Below, piece after piece: positions 2,783 to 18,686 of a DNA stretch of 20,479 nt; the first letter of the stretch is position 1, and every line of letters begins with the position of its first letter. Below the pieces are notes generated by a model, which saw only the letters and a list, made by a program, of their open reading frames with translations, was not told the origin of the DNA and ran no database searches. Origin of the DNA: a virus; the IMG/VR virus record IMGVR_UViG_3300032326_001331, positions 1-20,479 of that record. One strand, written 5' to 3'. The position numbers and the translations under genes are program-made.

Positions 2783-3220
2783 ATGAAGAAAATAACATTA
2801 ATAATATGTTTATTTTCTTCTGCTTCTTATGCAGGTGAAGTGACTTTTGGATTTAAAAATCCATCTTTTTCTGGTGTCGGCTATTCGTCTCATGTTTTAA
2901 CTATTGATAACCTTGAACAAACAAGGAAGCAGAAGATAATAGAGGACAAAAAAACAGAGGCGGCCAAAGCAGCCGCTGATGCTAAAAACACAAACTTGTC
3001 TAAATTTCTAAATAATCTTGAAAGTAGAATCTACGCAACGATATCACAGAATATCGCTGCAGAACTATTTAAAGAAGGCGGAGCAACTTCAGGATCTTTT
3101 GATATCGGTGGAAATAATTTACAATGGTTGTCTGATGGAACTACTATAACTCTGAGAATTACAGATCCCGGTGGTAGTGTTACGCAAGTGGTAGTACCAT
3201 ACGGGAGTTTAGCATGGTAA
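2783..3220 (+). CDS. csgF: CsgF-like curli assembly factor
   Basis: A 145-residue protein with a Sec signal peptide (residues 1-17, cleavage after SYA) and a strong GAGGAG ribosome binding site. The mature N-terminus reads GEVTFGFKNPSFSG, matching the CsgF N-terminal FxFxNPxFxG segment that, in E. coli, inserts into the CsgG pore neck. The C-terminal region has the CsgF-like pattern of a beta domain (ITLRITDPGGSVTQVVVP). Between them lies an Ala/Lys-rich helical stretch (EAAKAAADAKN) that looks longer or more charged than in E. coli CsgF. It overlaps csgG by 7 bases. Its expected role is to dock on the pore at the cell surface and help nucleate or anchor the exported curlin. Confidence 0.85.
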   Translation: MKKITLIICLFSSASYAGEVTFGFKNPSFSGVGYSSHVLTIDNLEQTRKQKIIEDKKTEAAKAAADAKNTNLSKFLNNLESRIYATISQNIAAELFKEGGATSGSFDIGGNNLQWLSDGTTITLRITDPGGSVTQVVVPYGSLAW

Positions 3221-4041
3221 AATATACATTTTTAATGGTCTGTGCTTTAGTATTAGCAGGTTGTTCTGGTAATAAAATCACATCAAGTAGAGATTTAGAG
3301 AATCAAGTAGATAAAGCAGAGATAATTACTGCAAAAAGATTTAATGAAATCATAAATATACCAGCTGTTTCATCTGATCCTATTCCGGTGGCTGTATACA
3401 AATTTTCTGATATGAGTGGACAAAGAAAACCATCTAGTAATTATGCTAGCTTAAGTTCTGCTGTCACACAGGGTGGAGAAGTTATATTAATTAAATCTTT
3501 ACAGGATGCAGCTAAAGGTAAGTTTTTTAAACCTATTGAAAGAGTTAGTCTTGATAATCTTGTGAAAGAAAGACAACTCATTAGAAGTCAGCGTGAAGTA
3601 TACGAGAAAGAAGAAGCCAAACCATTAACACCACTTATAGTTGCTGGTATTTTAATAGAAGGTGGTATAGTTGGTTATGATAGTAACATAGCAACAGGTG
3701 GTATAGGTGCAAGATATCTTGGTCTTGGTATTCAACAAGAATATCGTAAAGATGAAGTAACAATTATGATGAGATTAATATCCATTAGTAATGGTGAAAT
3801 ATTAATTACAAGTGGTGTAACTAAAACAGTGTATAGTACAGGTGTTAATGCTAATATTTTTAAGTTTGTAGATGCTGGAACTAGATCAGTCGAATTGGAA
3901 GCAGGAACATCTATAAACGAACCAACTACATATGCTGTTAGAATAGCTATAGAAGCTGCAGTAGTTGATATTATAAAGCAAGGTGTGCAGAAGAAGTTAT
4001 GGAAATATAAAGAGACAACTAAAAAGGAAAACAAAAAATGA
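3214..4041 (+). CDS. csgG: CsgG-like outer-membrane secretion pore lipoprotein
   Basis: A 275-residue protein, close to the 277 of E. coli CsgG. A lipoprotein signal peptide with lipobox LAGC places the lipidated Cys at residue 17. The family pattern is clear: VAVYKFSDMSGQRKP, then IERVSLDNLVKERQLIR, then GGIVGYDSNIATGGIGARY, then NGEILITSGVTKTV, and INEPTTYAVRIAIEAAV. CsgG forms a nine-subunit ungated diffusion channel for curlin export. In my manual alignment the E. coli constriction residues Tyr51, Asn55 and Phe56 fall on Ser, Ser and Leu, so the channel gate probably differs. The gene overlaps csgF by 7 bases and the curlin-repeat gene by 4. No csgE-like gene is seen in the window. Confidence 0.93.
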   Translation: MVKYTFLMVCALVLAGCSGNKITSSRDLENQVDKAEIITAKRFNEIINIPAVSSDPIPVAVYKFSDMSGQRKPSSNYASLSSAVTQGGEVILIKSLQDAAKGKFFKPIERVSLDNLVKERQLIRSQREVYEKEEAKPLTPLIVAGILIEGGIVGYDSNIATGGIGARYLGLGIQQEYRKDEVTIMMRLISISNGEILITSGVTKTVYSTGVNANIFKFVDAGTRSVELEAGTSINEPTTYAVRIAIEAAVVDIIKQGVQKKLWKYKETTKKENKK

Positions 4042-4721
4042 AAACCCTAACAAGAATGATTATGTTTTTATCATTCTTCGTTATGACAGGTTATGTAAAT
4101 GCGGCGAACTTAATCTACATGGACCAGATAGGTGATGGTTCTACTATAAACATCACACAGTCTGGTGCTGGAAACGCAATTGGTACATCAAGTGTTAAAT
4201 CATCTTTTACAGGTGATAATAACACAGTGACAATTGAACAAATTGGAAACAATAACGTAACTAATATGACTGTCAGTGGTGATGGTGCTACAATATCATC
4301 TATAGTTAATGGTAGCAGTAATATATTAAATTTAGAGTGTGGTGCTAATGGAGGTTCTTGCGGACCTTCTAATATTACAAAAACTATAACAGGTGATGGT
4401 AACCAGGTAACACAGTCTACAGATACATTAACTACTACTTCTGTTAATGTTCAATCAGATAATAACCAAGTAAATATTACTAGTACTTCAACAGCTGTTG
4501 CTGGTACTAAAAATACAGTTGATATCACTGGTGGTAGCGGTAACATTGTAGATGTTGTGCAAGCTGGCACAGCTGCTACAGTTGGTCATGAAGTTGATTT
4601 AACAATAAATGGTGCTTTAAATACCATTGACTTCAGACAAGGCGGAGCAGTTGACTCTAAGATTGTTACAAATATTACTGGTTCTAGCAACGCTATTACT
4701 ATTAAATCCAACCACAACTAA
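4038..4721 (+). CDS. Secreted curlin-repeat protein (long)
   Basis: A 227-residue protein starting at an ATGA overlap with csgG. A Sec signal peptide covers residues 1-22 (cleavage after VNA). The mature part is rich in Asn, Thr, Gly, Ser and Val/Ile, with degenerate curlin-like strand-turn-strand units such as YMDQIGDGSTINITQSGAGN and VTIEQIGNNNVTNMTVSG, then further weaker repeats to the end. It is the probable amyloid substrate of the CsgG channel. Two cysteines, 101 and 108, sit in ECGANGGSCG; E. coli CsgA has none. The last 95 bases overlap, in another frame, the start of the FecR gene. It could be a CsgA- or CsgB-type subunit; the sequence does not decide. Confidence 0.85.
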   Translation: MKTLTRMIMFLSFFVMTGYVNAANLIYMDQIGDGSTINITQSGAGNAIGTSSVKSSFTGDNNTVTIEQIGNNNVTNMTVSGDGATISSIVNGSSNILNLECGANGGSCGPSNITKTITGDGNQVTQSTDTLTTTSVNVQSDNNQVNITSTSTAVAGTKNTVDITGGSGNIVDVVQAGTAATVGHEVDLTINGALNTIDFRQGGAVDSKIVTNITGSSNAITIKSNHN

Positions 4722-5760
4722 TGCTTCGGTTGGTCAAGTAACAGAACAGTCAGGACCTACAGAGATAAAAAGACAGACTGATGTTATACCCAGTTCTTTG
4801 CAATTTGGTGTAGAGATGAAAGATATCATCACTACAGCAAACTCAAAGGCTGGGATAACTTTTAAAGATGACACTAAAGTTCAAATTACAGAACATAGTA
4901 GATTAGTAATTGATAATTTTGTTTATGATGGCGAAAAGAAAACAGGCAAATTAGGTATCAAGATGGCTCTTGGTACTATAAAATATGCATCTGGTCAGAT
5001 AGCAAAAAATGATCCTCAACAAGTATTAGTAACTACACCAACTGCTACAATTGGTGTTAGAGGTACAGATTTTTCCAGTACAGTTGATGAACTTGGCAGA
5101 TCACAAATTATATTACTTCCTTCATGTCCAATAGGTTGGAAAGACATACAAAAAGATTGTGTGACTGGACAAATCATAGTTTCTTCAGCTATGGGTACAA
5201 TATTATTAACAAAACCATTTGAAACTACAACAGTTGATACAGGTTTTACTAGACCTAGTGCTTCTGTTATATTGAATTTAGATTTAAATCAAATTAATAA
5301 CTTAATCATTGTAAGTCCGCCAAAAATTGTAGAATCTTCTGAAAGAATTTTAGAAAAAAAAGGTTATAATTTTTTAGATGAAGATCTTTTAGGTAAAGAT
5401 CATTTAAAGTTTGCTGAATTTGATAGAGATTTTCTTAAAGAATTTAATAAATTAGATAAAGATTTTTTAGGTACTGATTATCTTTATAACTTTTTAGATG
5501 TTGCTTCTTCGCAGTTTTTATCCGATGAGTTATCAGAATTTAATGCACTTCTTCCTAGATTTAATCCTACAAGTGGATTGAAATTTTTTGTTGAAAATGA
5601 TATACTAACATTGTATAGAGAAACAGTAAATAGCTATACTGAACTAAGTATGTCTCAATATAGAGCTGGTACTCTTAAAATAACTCAAGAAGGCGTAGAA
5701 ATAAAACAAATTATTAATAATACTGGTACAACTATAATTAACATAAAGCAATCAGAATGA
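4627..5760 (+). CDS. FecR-domain periplasmic protein
   Basis: A 377-residue protein if read from the TTG at 4627, the only conventional start before the domain; an in-frame stop lies at 4618-4620 and the next Met is residue 64, inside the domain. From this TTG the N-terminus is a good Sec signal peptide (basic start, LLQILLVLATLLLL, cleavage near TNA at residue 33). The FecR domain follows at about 35-200, with the hallmark TPTATIGVRGTDF at 138-149 and a Cys pair (167, 178) that could form a disulfide. Residues 245-295 are acidic and Phe/Leu-rich. The last 30 residues (ITQEGVEIKQIINNTGTTII and on) resemble a curlin repeat. FecR proteins are periplasmic signalling or ligand-sensing partners and often sit beside CHASE2 cyclases. 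Domain certain; start less so. Confidence 0.85.
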   Translation: MTSDKAEQLTLRLLQILLVLATLLLLNPTTTNASVGQVTEQSGPTEIKRQTDVIPSSLQFGVEMKDIITTANSKAGITFKDDTKVQITEHSRLVIDNFVYDGEKKTGKLGIKMALGTIKYASGQIAKNDPQQVLVTTPTATIGVRGTDFSSTVDELGRSQIILLPSCPIGWKDIQKDCVTGQIIVSSAMGTILLTKPFETTTVDTGFTRPSASVILNLDLNQINNLIIVSPPKIVESSERILEKKGYNFLDEDLLGKDHLKFAEFDRDFLKEFNKLDKDFLGTDYLYNFLDVASSQFLSDELSEFNALLPRFNPTSGLKFFVENDILTLYRETVNSYTELSMSQYRAGTLKITQEGVEIKQIINNTGTTIINIKQSE

Positions 5761-6038
5761 AAATAATAATAGCACTTCTTCTTATGACTTCAACTGCATT
5801 TTCACAGACGATACCTTCGCCTGTAATGAATAATGCTGCAATAAACCTAATAGGAAATTTCAATAATGTTATTATTAATCAATCTGGTATTGGTTTTCAC
5901 AATGTTGTTATTAATAGTACTGGCGACAGTGTTCCCATTAACATTACGCAATCAGGCAATACCAATAAGTCTATACAACTTGATATTCACTGTGTTAGCA
6001 ATTGTGCAACTACTCCTTATATTATTAATCAATATTGA
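5757..6038 (+). CDS. Secreted curlin-repeat protein (short)
   Basis: A 93-residue protein starting at an ATGA overlap with the FecR gene. A signal peptide covers about residues 1-16 (cleavage after AFS). The mature part has two to three curlin-like units (NVIINQSGIGFHNVVINSTG, INITQSGNTN), then HCVSNCAT with Cys79 and Cys83. It may be a nucleator or capping subunit beside the long curlin-repeat protein, in the way CsgB serves CsgA, but that is inference from size and context. No clear independent ribosome binding site is seen, so translational coupling is likely. Confidence 0.75.
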   Translation: MKIIIALLLMTSTAFSQTIPSPVMNNAAINLIGNFNNVIINQSGIGFHNVVINSTGDSVPINITQSGNTNKSIQLDIHCVSNCATTPYIINQY

Positions 6039-6040
6039 AC

Positions 6041-8098
6041 ATGGAAACTTTAGGAAAAATATTAACCAGCGCATGGTCAACTGTTATTTCAGCGATAATA
6101 CTAGTGGCCGTATATGTTTACAACCCTAGTCCAATACAAATATTACAATTAAAAACTTTTGATTTTTTAATAAACACTTTAGAAGATAAAAAATCAGAGG
6201 AAATAATAATTGTTGACTTTGGTGAGAAGTCAGTTAAAGAATTTGGTCAATGGCCATTTGATCGTAGAGATGTAGCAAAAACTGTAAATAAACTAAAAGA
6301 AAATGGCGCTGCTGTAATAGTTATGCCAATACTTTTCTCCGAGAAAGATAGAGCAGGAGGAGACAATGAATTTACAAAAGCTTTGGATGGTGTTGTCATC
6401 GCACAAACACCTACTACTCAAAATATACCACCAGATACAGTACGTCGCGGGTTTGCTTCTATCGGTCCTGTTAACCCTGTCGATTATGTGTTTCGTTGGA
6501 ACGGTGGCATACGTCCTTTATCAGAGCATGCCAAAGTGGCCGGAGGTGTTGGTGTGGTCGCCACCATTAATGAGGTGGATGGTGTGGTTCGTCGTATCCC
6601 TTTACTTGTCAATATTGCTGGCAATTTGTATCCTTCATTACCCTTGGAAACAATTAGGGTTGCCGCCGGTGATCCTAGTTACCAAATTAAAACAAGTGAA
6701 AATGGGCCAGAATTTGTTAGAGTACCAGCATTCGCGCCGATACAGACTGATGAAAGAGGCAGAATCTGGTCAACGTGGAACACAAAATTCGAAAGAATAG
6801 AAGCTACAGAGATTGACCAACGCGTTCAGAATAAAATAGTAATTTTAGGCATTTCAATAGAAGGTGTAGGTGGTATAATAGCTACACCAACTGGTGAGAA
6901 GTGGGCTCATGATATACAGGCTAGCGCACTTCAGACAATTATTGATGGTTCTTCTATATCTAGACCAGGATATAGTAATCTAATTGAAAAAATTATATTA
7001 ATAAGCGTATTAATAATATTAATAATTTTAGTGCCTAGAACATCCGTTAAGTGGACTATTCCAGTTTATGTTGTAATTGTAGTATCATGTGTTACATTTG
7101 CAGTTTATATGTTTAATCAACATATGCAATTGTGGGATACTAGTTATTTGTTATTTGCTTCTACTCTAACATTTGGTCATCTTGTATTCAACAATTTTGC
7201 ACGTGAATTTAGATTAAAGCAACAGATTAAAAAACAGTTTGGCACTTATCTATCACCAGCACTTGTAGAAAAACTACAGAAGAACCCAGAGTTATTGCAG
7301 CTTGGCGGAGACACTAGAGAGCTATCAATCATGTTTACTGATGTTCGCGGCTTTACTAATATTAGTGAGCATTACGGAAGCGACGTTCAAGGATTAACAA
7401 AAATAATGAATCGCTATATGACAGCGATGACAGCTAAAATATTAGATAATAATGGAACTCTTGATAAGTACATTGGCGATGCACAGATGGCTTTTTGGAA
7501 TGCACCACTTGATGATGCAGATCATGCTAAACATGCGGTTAAAACAGCATTAGAGATGTTAGGTGACTTGGAAAAATTCAACAGAGAGATTGCTGACGAA
7601 GGTGTGCCTCCTTTTGGGATGGGTCTTGGTATTAATACAGGTAGCGTTGTGGTCGGAAATATGGGATCTAGTCAACGTTTTGATTACACTTGTTTGGGTG
7701 ATTCTGTTAACTTGGCAAGCCGTCTTGAAGGACAGAGCAAGCCGTATCATGTAAAAATGATTATTGGTCAAAGAACATACGAATTGGTAAAGGATGAATA
7801 TCTCTGCCTAGAACTTGATTGTCTGGCAGTTAAAGGTAAAAAACTAGGTGTAAATATTTACACTATAGTACCAAAAACAGCTCTTAATAGAGCATATTCA
7901 AAAACTCATAATGATTTTATTAAGCTATATAGAGAACAAAATTGGTTAGCTATAGATGAGTACTATAAAACATTAAAAAATGCTTTTGATGGTGAGATGA
8001 ATGAATATTATGATATGATGATGGAGAGAATAGAGGAATTTAAGAAAAATCCTCTATCATCTGATTGGGATGGTGTTTATCGTGCCACTAGTAAGTAA
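6041..8098 (+). CDS. CHASE2-domain adenylate cyclase, membrane-bound
   Basis: A 685-residue class III nucleotide cyclase starting at ATG 6041; a TTG at 6035 overlapping the upstream stop is an alternative. An N-terminal membrane helix (about 13-28) is followed by a periplasmic CHASE2 sensor domain (about 35-310, with QWPFDRRDVA and DGVVRRIPLL), three membrane helices (about 313-387) and a cytoplasmic catalytic domain (about 425-615). Catalytic residues are intact: metal-binding Asp434 (FTDVRGF) and Asp480 (YIGDAQMAFW), adenine-selecting Lys476 and Asp548, and transition-state Asn557 and Arg561 in NLASR. The Lys/Asp pair points to ATP rather than GTP. The expected activity is cAMP production in the host cytoplasm in response to a periplasmic signal, perhaps via the FecR protein. 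It ends one base from a convergent gene. Confidence 0.93.
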   Translation: METLGKILTSAWSTVISAIILVAVYVYNPSPIQILQLKTFDFLINTLEDKKSEEIIIVDFGEKSVKEFGQWPFDRRDVAKTVNKLKENGAAVIVMPILFSEKDRAGGDNEFTKALDGVVIAQTPTTQNIPPDTVRRGFASIGPVNPVDYVFRWNGGIRPLSEHAKVAGGVGVVATINEVDGVVRRIPLLVNIAGNLYPSLPLETIRVAAGDPSYQIKTSENGPEFVRVPAFAPIQTDERGRIWSTWNTKFERIEATEIDQRVQNKIVILGISIEGVGGIIATPTGEKWAHDIQASALQTIIDGSSISRPGYSNLIEKIILISVLIILIILVPRTSVKWTIPVYVVIVVSCVTFAVYMFNQHMQLWDTSYLLFASTLTFGHLVFNNFAREFRLKQQIKKQFGTYLSPALVEKLQKNPELLQLGGDTRELSIMFTDVRGFTNISEHYGSDVQGLTKIMNRYMTAMTAKILDNNGTLDKYIGDAQMAFWNAPLDDADHAKHAVKTALEMLGDLEKFNREIADEGVPPFGMGLGINTGSVVVGNMGSSQRFDYTCLGDSVNLASRLEGQSKPYHVKMIIGQRTYELVKDEYLCLELDCLAVKGKKLGVNIYTIVPKTALNRAYSKTHNDFIKLYREQNWLAIDEYYKTLKNAFDGEMNEYYDMMMERIEEFKKNPLSSDWDGVYRATSK

Positions 8099-8099
8099 A

Positions 8100-8453
8100 T
8101 TACTTTACTTTGTCAGTTTTTTTTTCTGGATAGCTAGCGGACTTCTGCTCTGGTGGAAATTTAATTTTAATCTGGTCTTTAACAACAAAATTATGAGCTT
8201 GCTTTGTTAATTCATCATGTTCCATTTTACGTAGTTGAAGAACTATATTAACTTTTTGATTTAAGCGAATAAGATCATTATCAAGCATGCGAATACGATC
8301 AATCAGCGCAATTAAAACTTTATTAGCTTCAGATAACACAGGTTTAACTTCCTGAGTTGCCCATGTCCAAACATAAAAAATCATATAACCCATACCTGCT
8401 GCTGCAACGATAGGGAAACCATATTTTGATATTAGTTGAGCAATATCACCCAT
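8100..8453 (-). CDS. Holin-like small membrane protein B
   Basis: A 117-residue minus-strand protein with a GGAGAG ribosome binding site 7 bases before its ATG, 2 bases downstream of its paralogue. The N-terminus YGFPIVAAAGMGYMIFYVW is one membrane segment (about 11-31), followed by a heptad-like helical part (about 40-90) and a charged Lys-rich tail. The layout of one N-terminal membrane helix plus coiled coil plus basic tail resembles BhlA/UviB-type and other small phage holins, proteins that permeabilise the inner membrane to time lysis. The function is inferred from architecture and the probable late promoter, not from a firm family match. Confidence 0.6.
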   Translation of the reverse strand: MGDIAQLISKYGFPIVAAAGMGYMIFYVWTWATQEVKPVLSEANKVLIALIDRIRMLDNDLIRLNQKVNIVLQLRKMEHDELTKQAHNFVVKDQIKIKFPPEQKSASYPEKKTDKVK

Positions 8454-8455
8454 GT

Positions 8456-8737
8456 TTAATCTCTCCTTGCATCATTTTTACCATCTGCGCGAGCAATACG
8501 ATCAATATCAGGTTTAACACCCATAGCATTGGAAACAAGAGTATCAATTCTAATAACATCATGATTCATGGTCTTAACTCTATTATCTAAAGCAGTAATA
8601 ATGCCACTAAGACCTTGCACACTACTCATAACACCAGCTAAAATAAATTTAATAGTAAGAAAAATAAAGTATCCCATGGCGCAGGCAGCTGCAATAGGAA
8701 AACCAACATCCGCAATTAATTTGAACCATGTATCCAT
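8456..8737 (-). CDS. Holin-like small membrane protein A
   Basis: A 93-residue minus-strand protein with GGAG 7 bases before its ATG. The N-terminal DVGFPIAAACAMGYFIFLTI matches the downstream protein's GFPIVAAAGMGYMIF, and both continue with a helical region having the pattern ITALDNRVKTMNHDVIRID versus LIALIDRIRMLDNDLIRLN. The two are therefore tandem paralogues. One membrane helix (about 10-35) and a charged C-terminus suggest a holin-type membrane protein; a structural or regulatory partner of the second copy (holin/antiholin) is possible. A T4-like late promoter lies about 26 bases upstream. Confidence 0.6.
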   Translation of the reverse strand: MDTWFKLIADVGFPIAAACAMGYFIFLTIKFILAGVMSSVQGLSGIITALDNRVKTMNHDVIRIDTLVSNAMGVKPDIDRIARADGKNDARRD

Positions 8738-13444: not shown

Positions 13445-14142
13445 TATCTTTTATTATACCGTGCTATAATGAAGAACAATATATTAAAGAGTGTATTCAA
13501 TCTATTATGATAGAAGCTGCACTAATTCCTTATGAAATAATTGTTATAGATAATAATTGCACTGACAATACCGCTTCAATCGCATCACAAGAAGGTGCGA
13601 TTGTTGTTTCTGAAAAGCAAAAAGGTGTAGTGTTTGCCAGACAGAAAGGTTATGAAATTGCGCAATATGATCTAATTGCAAACATCGATGCTGATTCTAG
13701 ATTGTGTAAAGGTTGGATTAAGACTGCATTATCTCAGATAAATAACGATGATGTGGTTGCTGTTACTGGTCCTCTTGTATATGATGACGTTTCAAAAACA
13801 ATGACTATTATGACCAAGATGTATTATTATCTTGCATGGTTTAGTAATAACTATATTGGTGTTTTTCTTCAAGGAGGTAATGCTCTTATAAAGAAATCTG
13901 CCTTAGATAAAGTAAATGGTTATGATACATCTATTGCTTTCTATGGTGAAGACACTATGACAGCAAAAAGATTAAATGAGTTTGGTGAAATTAAATTTGT
14001 TATGAAATTAAAATTGCATTCATCTCCAAGGAGATTAAAAGATCAAGGTGTATTGAAAACGACTTGGTTATATCTATCTAATTATTTTTCCGTGACATTC
14101 AAAAATAAATCCACTACAAATGATTATAAGGATTTTAGATGA
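13441..14142 (+). CDS. Family 2 glycosyltransferase
   Basis: A 233-residue protein starting with a TTG that overlaps the nrdB stop (TTGA). It opens directly with MISFIIPCYNEEQYIKEC, the GT2 nucleotide-sugar fold, followed by VIDNNCTDNT and the metal-binding DxD-type NIDADS (Asp83, Asp85). FYGEDTMTAKRL supplies the ED acceptor-side motif. GT-A enzymes of this kind transfer a sugar from a nucleotide-sugar; donor and acceptor are unknown. The last residues overlap the LpxH-like gene (ATGA), suggesting paired roles at lipid or envelope sugars. A strongly hydrophobic patch around 125-140 (MYYYLAWFSNNYIGVFL) suggests membrane association. Confidence 0.88.
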   Translation: MISFIIPCYNEEQYIKECIQSIMIEAALIPYEIIVIDNNCTDNTASIASQEGAIVVSEKQKGVVFARQKGYEIAQYDLIANIDADSRLCKGWIKTALSQINNDDVVAVTGPLVYDDVSKTMTIMTKMYYYLAWFSNNYIGVFLQGGNALIKKSALDKVNGYDTSIAFYGEDTMTAKRLNEFGEIKFVMKLKLHSSPRRLKDQGVLKTTWLYLSNYFSVTFKNKSTTNDYKDFR

Positions 14143-14879
14143 AGTCATATAAAACAGTATTTATTTCCGATATTCATTTAGGCACAAAAATGAGTAGAGC
14201 AGATCAATTGCTCGAATTTATGAAAACGTTTGAATGTGATAAAATATATTTGGTTGGTGATATTATTGATTGCTGGGCTATGTCAAAGAAAACAATATGG
14301 TCGCAGTTTCATAATGACGTTATTCAAAAATTATTGCGTAGAGCAAGGAAAGGCACAGAGATAGTTTACATACCCGGTAATCATGATGAAGTAATGCGTG
14401 ATTATTGTGATAATGAATTTGGACATATCATCATAGCAAAAGAATCAATACATATTGGTGCAAATGGTAAACTTTACCTCGTTACTCATGGCGACCAATT
14501 TGATATTGTAATGAGAAATGCCAAATGGTTGGCTCATCTTGGTTCATGGGCCTATGATGTTAGTATATCTATAAGTATTGCACTTAATAAAGTTAGAAGT
14601 TTGTTTGGTATGTCTCATTGGTCTTTGTCTTCATATCTAAAAAATACCGTTAAAGAATCAGTAAATTTTATTGGTGACTATGAAGAAACATTAACAAAAT
14701 ATGTTAAAAATAAAGGATTGAATGGTATCATTTGTGGGCATATTCATCATGCTAATATAAGAGATATTGATGGAGTAACCTATATGAATTGTGGTGATTG
14801 GGTTGAATCATGCACAGCATTAGTTGAGAACCACGATGGTTCATTTGAAATTATATATTTTAAAGGAAATTTATCATGA
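14139..14879 (+). CDS. LpxH-like metallophosphoesterase
   Basis: A 246-residue calcineurin-like phosphoesterase. The metal-site motifs are in order: Asp11 and His13 (SDIHLG), Asp41 (GDIIDCW), Asn81 with His82 and Asp83 (GNHDE), His117 (THGDQFD) and His201/His203 (GHIHH). The GDIIDCW and THGDQFD signatures resemble UDP-2,3-diacylglucosamine pyrophosphohydrolases (LpxH), which act in lipid A synthesis at the inner membrane. Specificity for UDP-diacylglucosamine is inferred; another pyrophosphate substrate is possible. It overlaps the glycosyltransferase on one side and the Cys-rich protein on the other, each by ATGA. Confidence 0.88.
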   Translation: MKSYKTVFISDIHLGTKMSRADQLLEFMKTFECDKIYLVGDIIDCWAMSKKTIWSQFHNDVIQKLLRRARKGTEIVYIPGNHDEVMRDYCDNEFGHIIIAKESIHIGANGKLYLVTHGDQFDIVMRNAKWLAHLGSWAYDVSISISIALNKVRSLFGMSHWSLSSYLKNTVKESVNFIGDYEETLTKYVKNKGLNGIICGHIHHANIRDIDGVTYMNCGDWVESCTALVENHDGSFEIIYFKGNLS

Positions 14880-15144: not shown

Positions 15145-15312
15145 TTGAGTGATAAAGAAATAGTTTGTACAAATTGTGAAGCAGAATTTCAAATAGTGTA
15201 TGATGGAGTAGATTCACCAGAGTTTTGTCCATTCTGCGGTGATAAAATAAGGTATGATGATAGTGATTTTGATGAATCACTTGACATAGATAATTGGGAA
15301 GAAGATGTATAA
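15145..15312 (+). CDS. Small zinc-ribbon protein, TTG start
   Basis: A 55-residue protein starting at a TTG with a good TTAGGAG site 8 bases upstream; there is no ATG in frame before the motif. It reads MSDKEIVCTNCEAEF and later SPEFCPFCGDKIR, so Cys8, Cys11, Cys28 and Cys31 form a CxxC-x16-CxxC zinc ribbon, followed by a very acidic tail (DDSDFDESLDIDNWEEDV). Zinc ribbons with acidic tails appear in phage transcription or replication accessory factors, but no function is proposed. The strong ribosome binding site and intact motif support a real gene. Confidence 0.75.
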   Translation: MSDKEIVCTNCEAEFQIVYDGVDSPEFCPFCGDKIRYDDSDFDESLDIDNWEEDV

Positions 15313-15318
15313 TAAATA
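15311..15318 (+). promoter_or_regulatory. Possible degenerate late promoter of the GIY-YIG gene
   Basis: AATAAATA differs at one base from the T4 late box TATAAATA. Transcription would begin near 15324, inside the left arm of the hairpin that covers the ribosome binding site of the next gene. A weak sequence match; the position is what makes it worth listing. Confidence 0.25.
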
Positions 15319-15320
15319 AA

Positions 15321-15336
15321 GGGAAAGGAATTTCCC
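15321..15336 (+). promoter_or_regulatory. Hairpin overlapping the ribosome binding site
   Basis: GGGAAAGGAATTTCCC is a 6-bp perfect stem with a GGAA loop. The only plausible ribosome binding site for the GIY-YIG gene (AAAGGAA) lies in its left arm and loop, and the ATG at 15339 is 2 bases past the right arm. Folding should lower translation from read-through transcripts. There is no T-tract, so it is not an intrinsic terminator. Confidence 0.55.
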
Positions 15337-15338
15337 TT

Positions 15339-15758
15339 ATGTCTTATGAAAACTCGTGGTATTATAATAACGAAATAGTAGAATCAGATAAAATAGAAGT
15401 ATTCTATGGTTTTGTATATCGAATCACCAATATTTTAAATAATAAACAATACATCGGAAAAAAGTTTTTCTGGTCATCAAAAACACGTGTAGTAAATAAA
15501 AAGAAAAAACGATACAAAGTGGAATCTGACTGGAAAAAATATTACGGTTCTAGTAAAGAATTGGTGTACGATGTTGAACAATATGGTAATATGAATTTTA
15601 GGAGAGAAATTCTTCGGTTATGCAAAACTAAAAGCGAATGCGGTTACTTCGAAGCAAAATATCAATTTCAAGAATCTGTTCTAGAGAGTGATAACTATTA
15701 CAATGCATGGATAATGTGTAAAATACATAAAAAGCATGTAAAAGGTAAAATAGCTTAA
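15339..15758 (+). CDS. GIY-YIG endonuclease, Seg-like
   Basis: A 139-residue protein starting at ATG 15339 (MSYENSWYYNN). The longer frame back to 15294 would run through the upstream zinc-ribbon gene and the hairpin, so it is rejected. The GIY-YIG pattern is seen as YGFVYRITNILNNKQYIGKK, with Lys/Arg-rich sequence after it (KKKKRYKVESDWKKYYGSSK) and a conserved Glu region (GYFEAKYQFQ). Comparable proteins are common in T4-like phages and are free-standing DNA endonucleases, some of them homing. It could promote gene transfer or attack competing DNA. Its own ribosome binding site is buried in a hairpin. Confidence 0.8.
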   Translation: MSYENSWYYNNEIVESDKIEVFYGFVYRITNILNNKQYIGKKFFWSSKTRVVNKKKKRYKVESDWKKYYGSSKELVYDVEQYGNMNFRREILRLCKTKSECGYFEAKYQFQESVLESDNYYNAWIMCKIHKKHVKGKIA

Positions 15759-16623: not shown

Positions 16624-17322
16624 ATGCAACAATATATTTCAGAAGCTAGAAATGACGTTATCTATGATGAAGGTCTTCGTAACTTCATGCTTAATGTTTA
16701 TAATTATATGACTTTTGCTCTTGCAGTTAGTGGTCTCGTATCACTTGGCATTAACATGAGTCCGGATCTTCTTAAATTGATCTGGGGTACAAATTTTAAG
16801 TGGATTGCCATCTTCTCACCATTGGCTATGAGCCTTGCTTTTGCTTTCCTTGTACAGAATATGAGTGCTTATAGTGCTCGTATTTTCTTGATAGCATTTG
16901 CTGCTGTCATGGGTCTTAGTATGAGTTCAATTTTCCTTATCTTTAAGCTCGGAAGTATTGCACAGGTATTCTTTATTACAGCCGCAACATTCGGTGCTAC
17001 TTCTTTGTATGGTTATACTACAAAGAGAGATCTTACAAACATCGGTAGTTTCTTAATGATGGGTGTAATTGGTCTTGTTATTGCAGGTTTAATCAATGTA
17101 TTCTTGCAAAGTTCTATGATGTCATTGGTTATTAGTTGTATCTCTGTAATTGTATTTGTTGGTCTTACAGCATATGATACACAGAATCTTAAGAATACCT
17201 ATGATGAACTTGATGAAAGTGAGAGAGAAAAGGCTGGAGCTATTGGCGCTTTCAATCTCTATATCAACTTCATCAATATTTTCATGGCACTTATGAATAT
17301 TCTAGGTGAGAAGAAAGAATAA
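16624..17322 (+). CDS. Bax inhibitor-1/YccA family membrane protein
   Basis: A 232-residue multispanning protein with TAAGGAG before ATG. Hydrophobic segments lie at about 26-44, 58-77, 84-107, 112-131, 142-161, 166-184 and 206-226, as in the TMBIM/BI-1 family. Family motifs YGYTTKRDLTNIGSFL and GLTAYDTQNLKNTYDE are present. Family members are cation or calcium leak channels, or (YccA) inhibitors of the FtsH protease. Asp185 of AYDTQ is kept, but the second sensor Asp in the C-terminal LYxDFIN segment is Asn215 (LYINFIN). In a phage it could protect or modify the host membrane before lysis. Family identity is firm, function is not. Confidence 0.88.
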   Translation: MQQYISEARNDVIYDEGLRNFMLNVYNYMTFALAVSGLVSLGINMSPDLLKLIWGTNFKWIAIFSPLAMSLAFAFLVQNMSAYSARIFLIAFAAVMGLSMSSIFLIFKLGSIAQVFFITAATFGATSLYGYTTKRDLTNIGSFLMMGVIGLVIAGLINVFLQSSMMSLVISCISVIVFVGLTAYDTQNLKNTYDELDESEREKAGAIGAFNLYINFINIFMALMNILGEKKE

Positions 17323-17423: not shown

Positions 17424-18686
17424 GTGAAAGATAATTTTTGGAATAGAAGTCTTAATGTTAGTGAACCCGCATGTTTACAAAAATGGGAATGGTCTACGAT
17501 ATATCTTATGCAACAAAATTCAAGTAGTTGTCATAGAGTAGATAAAGAACCATTTGATATAGAAACTTTTAATTTTCATAATACTCCTGGTGTTCTAGAA
17601 GCAAGAACACAAATGCTTAATGGTGTTTGGCCAGGTAAAGGGTGCGAGTATTGTAAAGATCTTGAAGATTCTGGCGGTTTAAGTGATCGTCAACAAGTTA
17701 ACAATAATTATAAGCTTTGGCATCTAACACCTAAAGAATTAGAACAAAACAATAAAAGTATTAATGTAACTCCATCAACATTGGAAGTTTATTTTTCAAA
17801 CTTATGTAATCAAGCCTGCTTATATTGTTATCCAAGATATAGTTCTAAAATAGAATCAGAACATAAAAGATTTAATCCACAAAATAAAGAATTAGAATTT
17901 ATTAATACACAAAAAAAGAATTATCAACAAGCTAAAAATAAATTTTGGTTATGGATGCAAGATAATTGTATTAACCTAAAAAGATATAGAATCTTAGGTG
18001 GCGAACCATTCTATCAAGAAGAAATATGGGAAAATATAAACTTCTTTAAAAATAATCCATGTTCTGAATTAGACATCCAGATATTCACTAATTTTAATGT
18101 AGACACTCAACGAGTTAGAACTATATTACAGGCATTCAAAGATCTTATAGATAACAAATATATAAAAAGTTTAAGATTAATACTTAGTATTGATGCATGG
18201 AGTCCAGCCGGAGAATATGTTAGAAGTGGATTAAATAATAAACTCTGGAAACAAAACTTTGATATGCTTAATACTGAATTTATTGAAGATTTTTCAGTTA
18301 CAGTACATTCAACGTTATGTAATTTGAATATAAAAACAACAGCAAACCTTGCTGAACTATTTAATCAATCTAATCTATCAAAGTTAAAATCTAATTTTCA
18401 TGATTTCGCATTAGCTGGAGGTCATGAACATCTATACATTGGTAATTTTCCAACTGGTTTTTTTGATGATGATTTTGATTTACTAATAAGTAAAGTTCAA
18501 GATTTACATAACACAAAAGAACAACTAACTGGTTTTAAAATTTTAGCTAATTCTAAACCATACAAACCAGACTTAATCTATGCACTTAAAAATTATTTAG
18601 ATAGCAATGATGCTAAAAGAAATACTAATTGGAAACAAACATTTCCTTGGTTAGAAAGTTTTAATCCAGAAGATTATAAAGAATGA
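17424..18686 (+). CDS. Radical SAM protein with N-terminal twitch domain
   Basis: A 420-residue protein with a GTG start and TAAGGAAAA upstream. The N-terminal part has the twitch-type pattern [16 protein letters not shown] (Cys36), [18 protein letters not shown] (Cys74, Cys77) and SDRQQVNNN. The radical SAM motif CNQACLYC (Cys128, Cys132, Cys135) and [11 protein letters not shown] follow. This order, with an auxiliary-cluster domain before the core, matches the N-terminal-twitch radical SAM group often seen in phages; substrate unknown. It follows the CAT tRNA by 19 bases and overlaps rlpA by 4. It is clearly different from the radical SAM protein at 1105, so it is not a duplicate. Confidence 0.87.

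Follow-up and report, generated by a model that had tools for sequence, protein, structure and literature searches.

Curli genes were described in pelagimyophages in 2020 (PMC7029224), the CsgGF of phage Melnitz was discussed in 2022 as a possible lysis device (PMC9004378), and the full cassette, including FecR and an adenylate cyclase, was described in the same year (PMC9599517). The curli and FecR proteins of this cassette are present at all 65 GOV2.0 stations, and cAMP-linked regulation has been discussed for it (PMC9599517). A CHASE2 sensor is not named in any of these three papers (PMC7029224, PMC9004378, PMC9599517). In bacteria, the CHASE2 adenylate cyclases of Campylobacterota share a gene cluster with an outer-membrane protein that has a FecR domain (PMC9239204), and a Burkholderia biofilm operon pairs a FecR-LysM periplasmic protein with a CHASE2 histidine kinase (PMC5192318).

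The locus considered here lies in IMG/VR record IMGVR_UViG_3300032326_001331; the whole stretch of DNA that was analysed (20,479 nucleotides) is referred to as the window. The window's cyclase closes a known virus-borne curli (type VIII secretion) cassette, whose genes run in the order CsgF–CsgG–curlin–FecR–curlin–cyclase on one strand (Table 1); both curlins are identified by weak matches below the Pfam cut-off. The first curlin gene has the position of the Melnitz 'curlin associated repeat protein'. A preliminary description of the cyclase, made from the DNA letters, had overlooked this context, namely the curli secretion genes and the periplasmic FecR directly upstream. It had placed the gene in a phage, which agrees with the viral record, the phage-type neighbours and the T4-type gp23 capsid gene found in 10/11 long relatives or isolates; a near-identity search of the window among known phages gave no match. 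Its further remark that phages seldom carry sensor-linked cyclases is contradicted by the at least 599 viral contigs that encode relatives of the cyclase, by the isolates HTVC008M and Melnitz, which have the gene order of the window cassette, and by the publication of the cassette in 2022 (PMC9599517). Among viral loci with room for the gene, FecR precedes the cyclase in the same orientation in 59/60, CsgG precedes it in 50/51 and CsgF in 45/50. In 10 viral loci the stop codon of FecR overlaps the start of the cyclase, and in some relatives a gap of ~4–6 kb with other genes separates the two.

Table 1 Features of the curli cassette and its cyclase in the window.
Feature	Position	Strand	Supporting match
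CsgF-like curli assembly protein	2783..3220	+	PF10614 E=9e-18
CsgG-like outer-membrane curli secretion pore	3214..4041	+	PF03783 E=2.5e-48
Curlin-repeat protein (CsgA/B-like), 227 aa, signal peptide	4038..4721	+	Weak: NCBIfam CsgA E=0.0034; Curlin_rpt E=0.0013, below cut-off
FecR-domain periplasmic protein, C-terminal curlin-like repeat	4651..5760, start uncertain	+	PF04773 E=3e-11
Short second curlin-like protein, 93 aa	5757..6038	+	Weak CsgB match E=0.0047
CHASE2 adenylate cyclase gene, 685 aa	6041..8098	+	phrog_35576 E=1e-219
CHASE2 periplasmic sensor domain, residues 20-327	6098..7021	+	PF05226 E=6.6e-39; AF2 pLDDT mostly >88
Class III cyclase catalytic domain, residues 426-609	7316..7867	+	PF00211 (Guanylate_cyc) E=1.8e-20; PDB matches 3r5g, 1wc1

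The cyclase reading frame is uninterrupted and begins with ATG at 6041, with an in-frame TTG at 6035 as an alternative start. Pfam and AlphaFold2 together give the architecture N-terminal TM–CHASE2–3TM–class III cyclase, and the CHASE2 and Guanylate_cyc matches are both well past the cut-off. AlphaFold2 (mean pLDDT 86) places a helix at the N-terminus, followed by a periplasmic alpha/beta domain, three membrane-length helices (residues 312–333, 336–361 and 368–400), the cyclase fold and a helical tail, so that CHASE2 lies between the N-terminal TM helix and the three TM helices, as is characteristic of CHASE2 sensor proteins. The catalytic part matches CyaB (3r5g) and CyaC (1wc1) with a TM-score of ~0.85 over the target. 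Compared with L002 and L003, whose cyclases are 89 and 88% identical to the window's (tblastn), dN/dS by NG86 is 0.036–0.037 for the catalytic domain, a rough figure because its synonymous sites are near saturation, and 0.09–0.11 for CHASE2. In these comparisons, purifying selection clearly keeps both the enzyme and its CHASE2 sensor.

The preliminary description had reported a complete class III adenylate cyclase with a sensor domain that should be active, naming six catalytic residues. This is correct except for one of them: the intact 685-aa frame, the CHASE2 and cyclase domains and a Lys/Thr pair bear it out, and Asp434, Lys476, Asp480, Asn557 and Arg561 are present as named, but Asp548 was misnamed as adenine-selecting, since the window's 'FDYTCLGDSVNLASRLE' aligns with 'MDYTIIGREVNLASRLE' of Pseudomonas aeruginosa CyaB (3r5g) and gives that role to Thr550. 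The metal-binding Asp434/Asp480, the base-selecting Lys476/Thr550 and the transition-state Asn557/Arg561 are thus all present, and D434, K476, D480, N557 and R561 are invariant among 75 full-length viral homologues. Position 550 is Thr in 19/19 viral sequences compared and Ser in 15/15 bacterial ones; the HTVC008M cyclase also has Ser. In the same alignment output, Cya2 (2w01), a guanylate cyclase, carries Glu where the window's enzyme has Lys476 and Gly where it has Thr550, so that a preference for adenylate is the more likely one. Lys/Thr or Lys/Ser pairs are the mark of the cyanobacterial CyaC/CyaB1 type (class IIIb), and CyaC (1wc1) has a pair of the Lys/Thr type. With Lys476/Thr550 matching CyaB, the protein is very probably an active adenylate cyclase that forms part of the curli cassette. 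The cyclase of Melnitz (L082:8989-11040) has Asp at the Thr550 position and Ser replacing Asn557, so its activity may differ, and given this Ser not every member of the family need be fully active.

The protein that most regularly accompanies the cyclase, FecR, has two start candidates in the window (TTG 4627 or TTG 4651) and no ATG. Its signal peptide (4651–4721) is encoded in another frame within the 3' end of the curlin gene, an overlap that recurs in relatives such as L003 and L039. At the other end of the protein, the FecR C-terminus (NNTGTTIINIKQSE) resembles the curlin repeat, as seen in the window's own curlin (FTGDNNTVTIEQIG). Scanning with a position-specific score trained on viral curlins placed the best curlin-motif match within the last 15 residues in 43/65 viral FecR proteins, against 3/65 shuffled sequences, 0/37 bacterial FecR and 0/58 CsgG; the viral FecR sequences are related, so the 43 cannot be counted as independent, and among the most diverged of them the signal is weak. 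Across 36 aligned FecR proteins, Gln367 is the sole invariant residue in the C-terminal third. An AlphaFold2 model of modest confidence (mean pLDDT 66) has six C-terminal strands with pLDDT 60–77. On this evidence the viral FecR has a curlin-like repeat at its C-terminal end, in which a single Gln is invariant, a feature newly described here.

Several further genes of the cassette and the window deserve mention. In some relatives a longer protein takes the place of the short second curlin; this gene carries PA14 in L081 (5265-6551) and HTVC008M (L083:7664-8989), and F5/8C in L050 (3349-5235), L051 (6193-7941) and L062 (2673-4586). Curlin repeats on the same protein as PA14 or F5/8C pass the Pfam cut-off in HTVC008M (L083) and L051, and these additions look like fibre-borne binding domains. 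Small membrane proteins of a single family (phrog_18771) lie antisense just after the window's cyclase (two at 8100–8737 on the minus strand, the first weakly matching a holin profile) and flank the curli cassette in most relatives, either downstream and antisense or upstream and sense (L007, L008, L015 and others). Directly before the cassette lies a radical SAM protein (1105–2760), as also in L003 and L039. A histidine kinase reported before CsgF in a podovirus cassette (PMC9599517) is absent from the window, which has the radical SAM protein there instead, and none is annotated at this place in the myovirus isolates HTVC008M and Melnitz. A second radical SAM protein is found at 17424–18686. 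The window also encodes a SegE-type GIY-YIG endonuclease (15294–15758) in its tRNA-bearing part and a membrane protein of the BAX-inhibitor-1 (Bax1-I) family (16624–17322, E=1.7e-55). A search of the window for riboswitches found none, only tRNAs.

Taken as a whole, it is close to an even call whether the locus provides an active membrane adenylate cyclase within a curli cassette whose FecR and CHASE2 read fibre export, with cAMP reporting the export state. The sensing model itself, in which FecR/CHASE2 would read out curli export, is the mechanism we favour, tentatively and as somewhat less than an even chance. FecR would reach the periplasm by Sec export via its signal peptide, where its curlin-like tail may mix with the curlin subunits bound for the CsgG/CsgF pore. 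CHASE2 would then read whether FecR is free or engaged, and the state of FecR would, via CHASE2, set cyclase activity, making cAMP a report on fibre export. We infer the FecR–curlin and FecR–CHASE2 contacts from gene order and the tail, and likewise infer the direction of the response and the target of the cAMP. The weak curlin matches, the 93-aa length of the second curlin and the lack of a detected cAMP receptor count against an export read-out, as does the report that Melnitz cultures show no clumping (PMC9004378). Rather unlikely, in our view, is a phage secretion checkpoint in which the amyloid-tailed FecR would inform the CHASE2 cyclase of curli export and cAMP made only during infection would hit a non-CRP target, in hosts like SAR11 that appear to be without cAMP signalling of their own.

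Where the cAMP would go bears directly on the host CRP-type regulation proposed in the preliminary description; on such a view phage cAMP would act on a host CRP/Clr-type regulator and reprogram host transcription. As a general route this is not supported, and it fails for the SAR11-infecting members, because 117 SAR11-order genomes contained neither class III (0) nor class I (0) cyclases and no CRP-like cAMP receptor was found in them; SAR11 is the host of HTVC008M. The same genomes gave only seven weak cNMP-binding matches; L169, the one that was examined, has the domain fused to an acyltransferase and is not CRP. The set comprises genomes from the order of one that has four SAR11 probe sites in its 16S. 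Completeness figures are not given for these 117 genomes, but so uniform an absence is hard to blame on gaps. On the phage side, none of 11 long genomes has a cNMP-binding or GAF domain, which also speaks against the CRP route. In its favour, the enzyme looks like an adenylate cyclase, and a cNMP-binding protein scores above the cut-off in 210/289 sampled genomes of the class of G001, which was reached via an alphaproteobacterial contig, so the host of the window's phage may well have one. The capsid of L003, the closest long relative, is nearest to that of Stenotrophomonas phage DLP_6, followed by Sinorhizobium phages and Melnitz, and a CRP-bearing host for the window's phage is therefore quite possible. 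Overall, we consider action on host CRP somewhat unlikely. A phosphoesterase at 14139–14879 was considered as a cAMP phosphodiesterase partner and is unlikely to be one, as every PDB match is to LpxH (UDP-2,3-diacylglucosamine hydrolase). This LpxH-like gene adjoins a GT2 gene; in L010, L013 and L035 the gene immediately after the cyclase is a homologue of it.

CHASE2 might instead sense a small molecule or envelope stress without FecR or curli, leaving the cyclase as co-transcribed cargo of an ancestral adhesin operon and its cAMP minor or host-dependent. The ligands of CHASE2 domains are not known (PMC5192318), and the relatives with ~4–6 kb and other genes between FecR and cyclase fit this; we nevertheless judge it quite unlikely, as FecR and cyclase occur together in nearly all viral loci (59/60) and purifying selection acts on CHASE2 as well. 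Among PADLOC models, those for PycC hit the catalytic domain (PDLC00734, E=3.7e-26), which would suit a Pycsar-like cyclic-nucleotide defence or a superinfection-exclusion cyclase. However, the match covers the shared class III core only, the Lys/Thr pair in the active site is of the adenylate cyclase type, and the context is CHASE2 and curli with no effector gene, no effector being found in the window and no cNMP-binding effector in the 11 long phage relatives. Such a role is very improbable, and membership of Pycsar was rejected for want of an adjacent effector with a cNMP-binding domain. An inactive relic or an assembly artefact is less credible still, to the point of being negligible: no point in its support was found, 75 full-length homologues keep the gene whole and its catalytic residues unchanged, the catalytic dN/dS is ~0.036, and cultured phages keep the gene order. 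The gene neighbourhoods of bacterial relatives also speak for the favoured reading of the cyclase as a reporter of curli export.

An alignment-based search of genome contigs recovered 80 bacterial relatives of the cyclase, nearly all from Alphaproteobacteria and 32–37% identical over nearly the full length; a single-sequence search had found none. In a quick tree, viral and bacterial cyclases part at one branch (SH-aLRT 100), which would fit a single acquisition within this sample. Neither CsgG nor CsgF was found in the 80 bacterial cyclase loci, so simple transfer of one complete operon is unsupported by these relatives, and they were set aside as donors of the cassette in its entirety. Within 6 kb of the cyclase, 50/59 alphaproteobacterial loci with room carry FecR, type I secretion genes or both; FecR lies farther away in only 1/42. 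The FecR proteins beside these cyclases include a cadherin/RTX adhesin (L086), and in Alphaproteobacteria the pairing of FecR with a CHASE2 cyclase appears to work for adhesins exported by type I secretion. In two marine Alphaproteobacteria, the gene immediately before the CHASE2 cyclase encodes an HlyD whose N-terminal part is a cNMP-binding domain (L093:2753-4477 and L096:8238-9962; Pfam on L093). In L093 this gene ends at the cyclase start, a hint that in those bacteria the secretion machinery may be a direct target of cAMP, as a possible cAMP-gated type I secretion system.

What is new here is that the sensor is CHASE2, that FecR is the near-constant partner of the cyclase, the FecR tail, and the PA14 and F5/8C on the second curlin, together with the alphaproteobacterial relatives, whose neighbours are FecR adhesins and genes for type I secretion but never CsgG/CsgF, and the absences in the SAR11 order. 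The cassette was known already; the role of its cyclase was not, and the CHASE2, FecR, tail and SAR11 results sharpen that question. Either phages bring second-messenger signalling into cells without it, or cAMP works in an unrecognised way, and either outcome would inform how bacterial FecR/CHASE2 pairs work.

Among characterized enzymes, CyaB (3r5g) and CyaC (1wc1) share the catalytic fold of the window's cyclase and differ in their regulatory domains; in the alignment, CyaB has Lys/Thr-type base recognition as well. The alphaproteobacterial CHASE2 cyclases (e.g. L088, L086 and L155) have a full-length architecture like the window's and FecR and/or secretion genes nearby, but they are without CsgG/CsgF, their FecR is often within giant adhesins, and they have Ser at position 550. 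The Campylobacterota cluster likewise joins a CHASE2 cyclase to a FecR envelope protein, but is bacterial, has a phosphodiesterase and TPR, and has no curli (PMC9239204). The Burkholderia operon has the FecR/CHASE2 pair with a histidine kinase rather than a cyclase as its output (PMC5192318). With such pairs in Alphaproteobacteria, in Campylobacterota and in a biofilm operon, the FecR/CHASE2 pair looks older than its link to curli. Closest is the pelagiphage type VIII secretion cassette of HTVC008M and Melnitz (PMC9599517): the window's cyclase is 43% identical to that of Melnitz and 40% to that of HTVC008M and falls outside the near branch of these isolates, and its second curlin is only 93 aa, but the order CsgF-CsgG-CsgA/B-FecR-CsgA/B-cyclase is the window's own, and since the full cassette with its cyclase was described there, the window cassette belongs to this published kind.
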